Source: Natronorubrum aibiense (GTDB lineage Archaea > Halobacteriota > Halobacteria > Halobacteriales > Natrialbaceae). Taken from it: a stretch of 64,000 nucleotides of DNA. The stretch is from assembly GCF_009392895.1 (NCBI RefSeq), contig NZ_CP045488.1:1054001-1118000 (forward strand). Direction: 5' to 3'. Below, one piece after another: positions 25,033 through 58,974 of this stretch. The notes beneath the pieces are model-generated. The model did not search any database and was not told the origin of the DNA. It saw nothing but the letters and a program-made list of their open reading frames with translations. Within the stretch, counting starts at the first letter, position 1. Each line of letters starts with the position of its first letter. Both the position numbers and the translations under genes were made by a program.

Positions 25033-25145
25033 GGCGCGGCCGCATCCTAAAGGCTACGGACCGTTGCTCGCACTGAACTATCACGCGAACTAACCAGCGA
25101 CTGAATCCGGCTATAGGCACCGATTACCCGCGGGTAGCCAGCCGA

Positions 25146-25153
25146 TTACAAAT
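25146..25153 (+). promoter_or_regulatory. TATA-like box of the tRNA-like element
   Basis: TTACAAAT, ~30 bp upstream of the first base of the tRNA-like sequence at 25181, in the position of a haloarchaeal TATA box. Confidence 0.4.
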
Positions 25154-25180
25154 ACGAAATCCGCCCTCGGTGTGAGATAC

Positions 25181-25268
25181 GGAAGGGTCGCTCAGCGGAA
25201 GAGCACCGCGGTGTCACCTGACCCGCGGCGGCACTATGCCTCGTGGCGTTCGAATCCCACCCCTTCCG
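25181..25268 (+). tRNA. tRNA-like element with irregular anticodon arm
   Basis: An 88-nt sequence with a perfect 7-bp acceptor stem (GGAAGGG/CCCTTCC) and discriminator G, a 4-bp D stem (GCTC/GAGC) with loop AGCGGAA, and a canonical T-loop TTCGAAT. The T stem GTGG-C-G/CCCAC needs one bulged C to pair. Between them, CCGCGG pairs with CCGCGG but encloses ~11 nt instead of 7, so no standard anticodon loop results; a short GGC/GCC variable arm follows. A TATA box lies upstream and a T-run (25270-25274) follows, so transcription is likely. It may be a degenerate tRNA, an unusual class II tRNA, or a tRNA-derived RNA. I cannot assign an amino acid. Confidence 0.5.
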
Positions 25269-58017: not shown

Positions 58018-58830
58018 CTACAGCGGAACGGCCGCGACGGCCTCGAGCAGCATCGACGGAGCTGGTTCAGCCGTCTCGATGTCGTACTCGACGGCGAGAT
58101 AGAGGACGCCGAACTGGAAGGCGTTCAGTGCGGCGTGGGACGCAATCGGCACGACGAGGTTGTCGGTTTTCGCGTAGAGGTAGCCGAAGATGAGCGCGCC
58201 GCCGAACATGATCGCAAGCGAAGAGGCAGTCGCGAGCATCGAGTCGGCAAGGGTCACGTACATCGGGAAGTGAACGAGCGCGAAGATGGTACTCGCGAGC
58301 ACGACAGCCTGCATCCGCGTGAACGCATCGTAGAGGCGCTTCTGGACGACGTTCCGGAACAGGAACTCCTCGGCCGGCGCGTTGAAGAAAAAGACGATGA
58401 CGATCATGATCAGGATCATCGTCTGGTCTTGGCCGACGACCTCGACGACGTTACTCTCCGCGGCCGGCACCGAGAGGAGTTGCAGGAGGATGTTGATGCC
58501 GAACAAAAACAGGAGGCTAGCGACGATCCCGCCGAGGACGTACCACCAGCCCGTTTTCGTCGGCATGCGGAGGTCGACGTACGACCAGCCGCGGCCGGTG
58601 GCGGCGAGATAGACCCCCCCTGCCAACGCCATGCCGACGAAGTTCAAGATCAGATATAGCGTTCGGCTCTCGATCGAGGCGTTACCGACTCCCTCGAGCA
58701 GCGCTGGGTCGATAAGCATCGCTGGAACCGTCGCGATACTGGCCCCGACGAGTCCGAAAATCGTTAGTCCGACGGCGACGAGCGTCGATCGAAGCGGCGC
58801 ACCGTCACGATGTTGGGAGGACGTCTCCAT
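58018..58830 (-). CDS. CPBP family intramembrane glutamic protease
   Basis: A 270-residue polytopic membrane protein of the CPBP/Rce1 (CAAX-protease-like) family. The catalytic EEFLFRN (Glu154-Glu155, Arg159) and the histidine motifs ALVHFPM (His187) and SHAALNAFQFG near 230 are present in the family order. About seven or eight helices. The substrate is unknown; bacteriocin immunity or membrane protein processing is suggested for relatives. It is on the same strand and downstream of the giant regulator gene. Confidence 0.92.
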   Translation of the reverse strand: METSSQHRDGAPLRSTLVAVGLTIFGLVGASIATVPAMLIDPALLEGVGNASIESRTLYLILNFVGMALAGGVYLAATGRGWSYVDLRMPTKTGWWYVLGGIVASLLFLFGINILLQLLSVPAAESNVVEVVGQDQTMILIMIVIVFFFNAPAEEFLFRNVVQKRLYDAFTRMQAVVLASTIFALVHFPMYVTLADSMLATASSLAIMFGGALIFGYLYAKTDNLVVPIASHAALNAFQFGVLYLAVEYDIETAEPAPSMLLEAVAAVPL

Positions 58831-58974
58831 ACGCAGGTCTATGGGTGCGTCCTCCTTGGGTGTTCCTTTCGCCGAACTCGTGTAACCCGGCGTGCGGTGT
58901 GCGGCGAGCCGATGACACGCGTCACGGCGACGGGTCGCCCACGGCCCGTGGACGGGAGTTTCAACAACTCCACG

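Follow-up and report, generated by a model that had tools for sequence, protein, structure and literature searches.

A short segment of the 64,000-nucleotide stretch of Natronorubrum aibiense DNA analyzed here (the window) is very probably an independent gene whose product is a conserved tRNA-like RNA of haloarchaea that does not decode. Together with its homologues, it constitutes a new family of predicted tRNA-like RNA genes conserved across haloarchaea, and a literature search found no description of this family. Selection appears to keep the acceptor stem, the D-arm, and a T-arm with a mandatory one-base bulge in its stem, and at the anticodon position to require no more than a closed hairpin of some kind. 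The RNA probably acts outside protein synthesis.

Architecture of the tRNA-like element

The element is tRNA-like by construction and falls outside the tRNAs on two points, its anticodon loop and its T stem (Table 1). It consists of a 7-bp acceptor, a 4-bp D stem with a 7-nt loop, a 23-nt central hairpin, and an 11-nt variable arm, and the window copy retains the sequence of the elbow bases U8, A14, G15, G18, G19, C48, U54, U55, C56, and A58. RNAfold predicted this same structure, at -42.1 kcal/mol with z = -3.08, and 1 of 200 shuffles was equally stable. The first-pass annotation had described an intact acceptor, D-arm, T-loop, and discriminator, a bulged C in the T stem, and a long variable region. 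Sequence and fold both agree with the first of these, the bulge is seen in the pairing GTGG[C]G/CCCAC, and the variable region is confirmed as a 4-bp arm, GGCA-CTA-TGCC; the observed tRNA-like element is real. The same annotation drew a CCGCGG/CCGCGG helix around an open loop of about 11 nt. The helix stands and the open loop does not, as the fold places an inner GUC/GAC stem after a bulged U to give a 9-bp hairpin with a 4-nt apex, ACCU.

Table 1 Features of the tRNA-like element and its upstream region in the window
Feature	Positions	Strand	Basis
TATA-box-like element ATTACAAATA, -36 to -27 from the acceptor stem	25145..25154	+	
Whole tRNA-like RNA, mature body 88 nt	25181..25268	+	Fold, covariance model R1, family conservation
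Acceptor stem 5' strand GGAAGGG, paired with 25261-25267	25181..25187	+	
D-arm GCUC-AGCGGAA-GAGC (A14, G15, G18, G19)	25190..25204	+	
Anticodon-position arm CCGCGG-U-GUC-ACCU-GAC-CCGCGG, a hairpin without an anticodon loop	25206..25228	+	
Variable arm GGCA-CUA-UGCC (4 bp); spacers of 1 nt and 2 nt (UC), same as in the genome's tRNA-Ser	25230..25240	+	
T stem 5' strand GUGGCG, six bases against five, bulged C at 25247	25243..25248	+	
T-loop UUCGAAU	25249..25255	+	
T stem 3' strand CCCAC	25256..25260	+	
Acceptor 3' strand CCCUUCC and discriminator G73, no encoded CCA	25261..25268	+	

The acceptor strand GGAAGGG is identical across the full-length Natrialbaceae copies retrieved by BLAST, with the sole exception of the divergent copy L042, in which one AU pair has become UA by a compensatory change. 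L042 and L156 share the compensated acceptor GGUAGGG/CCCUACC and a variable arm of 8-9 bp, and they possibly represent a third subtype. An 8-bp acceptor with C-1, as in tRNA-His, was considered and rejected because position -1 varies, being C in 82% of Natrialbaceae copies and T, A, or G elsewhere.

In the T stem, five of five pairs form only when one base is bulged (2/5 otherwise), and this was the case in 174/174 distinct copies. None of these 174 has the unbulged 5-bp T stem of an elongator tRNA, which is present in 48 of the 49 ordinary tRNAs of the genome. The bulged base is C or U, and from one subtype to another it is displaced by a single position. The pattern used for searching constrained the acceptor, a portion of the D-arm, the T-loop, and the 3' T strand and left the 5' T strand and the central arm free, so that neither the bulge nor the variability was built in. 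As the subtypes were split by GTGGCG, the constancy of the bulge inside the Natrialbaceae subtype (the 80-copy profile) is by construction.

The element does not have the properties of a decoding tRNA

ARAGORN reported no tRNA in the window, and Rfam gave no match above the gathering score there. A whole-genome search with the Rfam tRNA model returned 49 tRNAs that do not include the window element, which was not reported at the gathering cutoff of the elongator tRNA model (RF00005). With RF00005, three of the seven homologues tested (L144, L148, and L178) score 40-48 bits, and where ARAGORN made any call on a homologue, it was "tRNA-???" or an unrelated anticodon; tRNA finders tend to miss or miscall members of this family. 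The Rfam matches below the gathering score, Plastid-psbl-rps4 and mir-790, were dismissed as chance, the former being the reverse complement of the T-arm.

An atypical class II tRNA had been one of the first readings of the element. In the decoding sense, this reading is refuted by the missing conserved anticodon, by arms that are too short or capped with UUCG, and by the complete Ser/Leu set found elsewhere. Only 2 of the 174 distinct copies can be drawn with a 5-bp stem and a 7-nt loop (5+7+5), and these two are what speaks for a working, decoding tRNA that has an intron or an atypical anticodon loop. Against it, no anticodon triplet is conserved in the 174 copies, and the apical loops, mostly of 3-5 nt, comprise 92 different sequences, with several arms ending in UUCG. 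Among the 80 Natrialbaceae-type copies, the central and variable arms together take 74 different sequences. The shortest central arms have 14-15 nt, for example CCACC-UUCG-GGUGG in L144, whereas an anticodon arm needs 17 nt; because they are too short to hold an anticodon loop, an intron is excluded for these copies, and an intron-containing archaeal tRNA was rejected on the basis of these lengths and of the UUCG-ended arms. Moreover, the 49 tRNAs of the genome include four Ser anticodons (GGA, CGA, GCU, and UGA) and five Leu anticodons, and the element is therefore not needed for decoding; the comparison of anticodon repertoires proposed in the first-pass annotation thus finds it redundant. 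Taken together, we regard a decoding tRNA as extremely improbable.

The family is widespread in Halobacteria, and its central arm covaries

A DNA search of the genus gave matches in 10/10 genomes, one of which (G007) has a decayed remnant only. Within the family, BLAST retrieved the element from 109 of 125 genomes and 27 of 29 genera, almost always as a single copy. The search was extended to the class with covariance model R1 first and a pattern search second. The window copy, itself among the 32 training sequences of R1, scores 106.1 bits (E = 2.4e-20). The pattern GGWAGGGTNGCYC-N48..78-CRANTCCCRCCCCTWCC matches in 182/391 genomes and 44/86 genera of Halobacteria, and a reversed control pattern gave zero matches in the same 391 genomes. 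Among archaea of the same phylum outside Halobacteria, 0/124 genomes match, and in our sample neither the genus coded g33 nor the family f2 has the element. When prokaryotes were scanned with one genome for each species, at least 120 stretches were returned, and among the matches listed all but one bear haloarchaeal names, the exception being a "Euryarchaeota archaeon" with a copy like that of Halalkalicoccus. The homologues are 78-112 nt long.

Because the BLAST retrieval involved no selection by pattern, its copies form the set with the least bias. Among them, those of full length and of the common type agree within a few bases in the acceptor, D-arm, T-arm, and G73, and their anticodon-position and variable arms vary between genomes. 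In an alignment of 32 sequences, 95.7% of the pairs are standard, ten pairs have changed on both sides, and on each of the five measures the structure counts are above those of 500/500 shuffles and of every slid control. The anticodon hairpin contains compensatory changes (GC/AU, CG/UA, and others; helices 3 and 4), and the hairpin is thus maintained as a helix whose sequence can vary. The covariation of the anomalous arm, which had been put forward as a check, was thus followed across relatives, and the arm covaries as a stem. The discriminator is G73 in 133 of the 174 copies, A in 40, and C in 1, and copies from Haloferax and Halobellus have no clear variable stem.

A decaying tRNA, another early reading, is refuted by the class-wide conservation of the top half and the T-stem bulge, together with the compensatory changes in the anticodon hairpin. 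The relaxed constraint and decay across relatives that mark a tRNA pseudogene were not found, and true decay occurs only in L010 (G007) and L011 (G009), at the helicase locus described below, where the D-arm and central arm are destroyed and the acceptor is shortened, with the T-arm remaining. G009 has an intact copy, L009, at another locus, which suggests that L009 replaced the resident copy, and G007 appears to have lost the element. These two decayed copies at the usual locus and the patchy distribution outside Natrialbaceae count in favor of a functionless tRNA pseudogene or integration remnant. However, real decay looks different from the class-wide conservation and covariation seen here, G009 has an intact copy at another locus in addition to its decayed one, and no copy was present in viral contigs or phage records. 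As a general explanation, a pseudogene is already refuted by this conservation, and we judge it very improbable for the element. A viral or mobile origin was likewise rejected, as neither phage records nor viral contigs gave a match; one copy lies on a Halorientalis plasmid.

Promoter and genomic context

The TATA box noted upstream in the first-pass annotation is confirmed, and its position is strongly conserved at -36 to -27. In the 80 Natrialbaceae-type copies, positions -34/-33 are 100% A+T and positions -30 to -27 are 89-99% A+T, within an upstream region otherwise rich in G+C; judged by its sequence, this block is a good archaeal TATA box. In the alignment of the genus, the element and the TATA box are constant and the flanks drift. 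The fixed distance suggests a short leader and processing by RNase P. The T-run that had been noted downstream is not conserved, TTT or longer following only 22-26% of the homologues, and a conserved T-run terminator was rejected.

In Natrialbaceae, the element lies between genes for a DinG/XPD-type helicase (PF13307) and DUF7561/DUF7531 proteins in 154/158 loci, duplicates included. A second form is located directly downstream of sdhA, recognized by eye from translations, in many Haloarculaceae/Haloferacaceae-type genomes, and both forms coexist in some genomes. No functional partner is common to the gene contexts of the helicase-locus form and the sdhA form.

Several copies are unusual. L141 is a type-A copy at 58771-58860 of the 120-kb Halorientalis plasmid NZ_CP019069.1, about 9 kb from a FemAB-like gene, and its genome has an sdhA-type copy on the chromosome. 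L054 (minus strand, ~G045:C4:4254-4425), from a genome with a completeness of 55%, has about 70 bp of extra sequence separating its variable arm from its T-arm, which may reflect an insertion, decay, or an assembly error. Halegenticoccus has several full-length copies per genome (L224, L249, L258, and L266), some of which have no obvious upstream TATA box and adjoin glycosyltransferase and asparagine-synthase-like genes. In Haloarcula and Halorientalis (L186, L194, L197, L231, and L250), a AUGCCAGAA-like motif recurs in the central loop and could be a base-pairing or protein site.

Possible roles outside translation

The conserved parts of the element would be those contacted by RNase P, tRNase Z, the CCA enzyme, synthetases, and elbow-binding proteins. 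Of the earlier suggestion of a tRNA-derived regulatory RNA, the tRNA-derived, non-decoding part holds, given the conserved body and the missing anticodon loop. We tentatively put forward, as a quite possible account, an aminoacyl carrier that is transcribed, processed, charged, and used outside the ribosome, all steps after transcription being ones that we infer. Its own TATA box would drive transcription, and the transcript would be trimmed by RNase P and tRNase Z, receive CCA, and be recognized through its tRNA-like top half. The Natrialbaceae form could then be charged by seryl-tRNA synthetase (SerRS). The T-stem bulge should weaken binding to the elongation factor EF1A and the ribosome, and with this bulge and no anticodon the charged RNA would stay outside translation, where a non-ribosomal enzyme could use it as a donor of aminoacyl groups or as a sink for them, perhaps in modifying cell-surface glycans or lipids.

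SerRS ignores the anticodon, and charging by this enzyme is conceivable because of the tRNA-Ser variable-arm geometry and G73. The ordinary tRNAs of the same genome nearest to the covariance model are tRNA-Ser(UGA) and tRNA-Ser(GCU), at 50.3 and 42.8 bits, and the 2-nt UC spacer is that of tRNA-Ser, tRNA-Leu having 3 nt by our reading. The long variable arm, serine spacing, and G73 are found together in the window copy and the Natrialbaceae type, not class-wide; serine identity is not conserved, as 40 of the 174 copies have A73 and the variable stem is unclear in Haloferax and Halobellus. In addition, the D-arm resembles that of class I tRNAs such as tRNA-Ala(UGC), unlike those of tRNA-Ser and tRNA-Leu, which counts against a serine carrier. 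Together with the conserved top half, the Natrialbaceae features and the bulge favor, as the most likely function, a carrier or a decoy excluded from translation.

As a decoy or regulator, the RNA would never be usefully charged, and its top half would titrate or regulate a tRNA-binding protein, with RNase P, tRNase Z, an aminoacyl-tRNA synthetase, archaeosine transglycosylase, and EF1A as candidates. The conserved contacts of tRNA-processing and elbow-binding proteins, the drift of the discriminator between G and A that is expected if charging is irrelevant, and the position just downstream of sdhA in many genomes are consistent with this reading, but no target is known and a plain decoy leaves the bulge in all 174 copies unexplained, and we consider it somewhat unlikely. 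Another possibility is a ribonucleoprotein in which the tRNA fold shields an apical hairpin and displays it. Hairpins that are stable and variable, set on an elbow that is intact, would suit such a scaffold, and other tRNA-like RNAs, the YrlA Y RNAs and the trypanosomatid signal recognition particle (SRP) tRNA-like RNA, act in ribonucleoproteins; the hairpin on display, however, is conserved less than any other part, with 74 variants among 80 copies, making a scaffold improbable.

For the aminoacyl carrier, gene neighborhoods offer a lead to a partner. In Halorussus, Haladaptatus, Halegenticoccus, Halomicrococcus, and others, the element is in or beside surface-glycan gene regions (roles assigned by eye, partly by Pfam), and one neighbor is a FemAB-like protein (PF13480, by Pfam). 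Bacterial FemX-type members of the FemAB-like superfamily use aminoacyl-tRNA. All 16 type-A genomes outside Natrialbaceae have a FemAB-like gene, in 13 of them 4-68 kb away on the same contig. Outside the family, the gene occurs in 64/94 element-bearing versus 66/196 element-free genomes, counts that ignore phylogeny and genome size, and is thus missing from 30 of the 94; in the genome of the window, the FemAB-like genes are on another contig. A control flippase from the same islands co-occurs equally, being present in 7/7 type-A genomes tested, and the FemAB-like link is therefore not specific. A PDB sequence search gave no homologue, and no paper naming both FemAB and haloarchaea was found in a literature search. 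The co-occurrence is suggestive, not specific, and we treat the association with FemAB-like and glycan genes as a weak lead. That the whole class has an aminoacyl-carrier RNA family, barred from the ribosome by the bulge and serving a non-ribosomal transferase, e.g. a FemAB-like one, in surface glycan or lipid modification, appears unlikely.

Comparison with known tRNA-like RNAs

If tRNA-like genes without an anticodon are kept throughout a class, this would demonstrate that tRNA bodies are maintained in cells for roles other than decoding. The signature of the family, a T-stem bulge combined with a free anticodon hairpin, is testable, and the family is present in culturable genera, including Haloferax and Haloarcula. 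It provides a clean setting in which to study the role of a tRNA body from which decoding has been removed.

The bacterial YrlA tRNA-like module and the trypanosomatid SRP tRNA-like RNA are likewise cellular, non-decoding tRNA-like RNAs; compared by description only, they have no sequence relation that we could see. The tRNA-like domain of tmRNA also combines a tRNA top half with a replaced anticodon arm. Unlike tmRNA, the element is archaeal, has about 78-112 nt, and contains neither a reading frame nor pseudoknots; ARAGORN reported no tmRNA in the window or the homologues, and tmRNA was rejected on the missing tag reading frame and pseudoknots and on the length. tRNA-Sec and allo-tRNAs have a long variable arm and are charged with serine, and the element resembles them in its long variable arm and in the serine charging that would be expected. 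It differs in its 7-bp acceptor, 4-bp D stem, 5-bp bulged T stem, and lack of an anticodon, and tRNA-Sec was rejected because the acceptor is not 8-9 bp and there is no UCA anticodon. Comparing the element with haloarchaeal class II tRNA-Ser, the two are alike in G73 (window copy), the variable-arm spacing of 1 nt and 2 nt (UC), the acceptor, the T-loop, and the elbow bases, whereas the element is set apart by a class-I-like D-arm with a 7-nt loop, a bulged T stem, and a hypervariable central hairpin in place of an anticodon loop.
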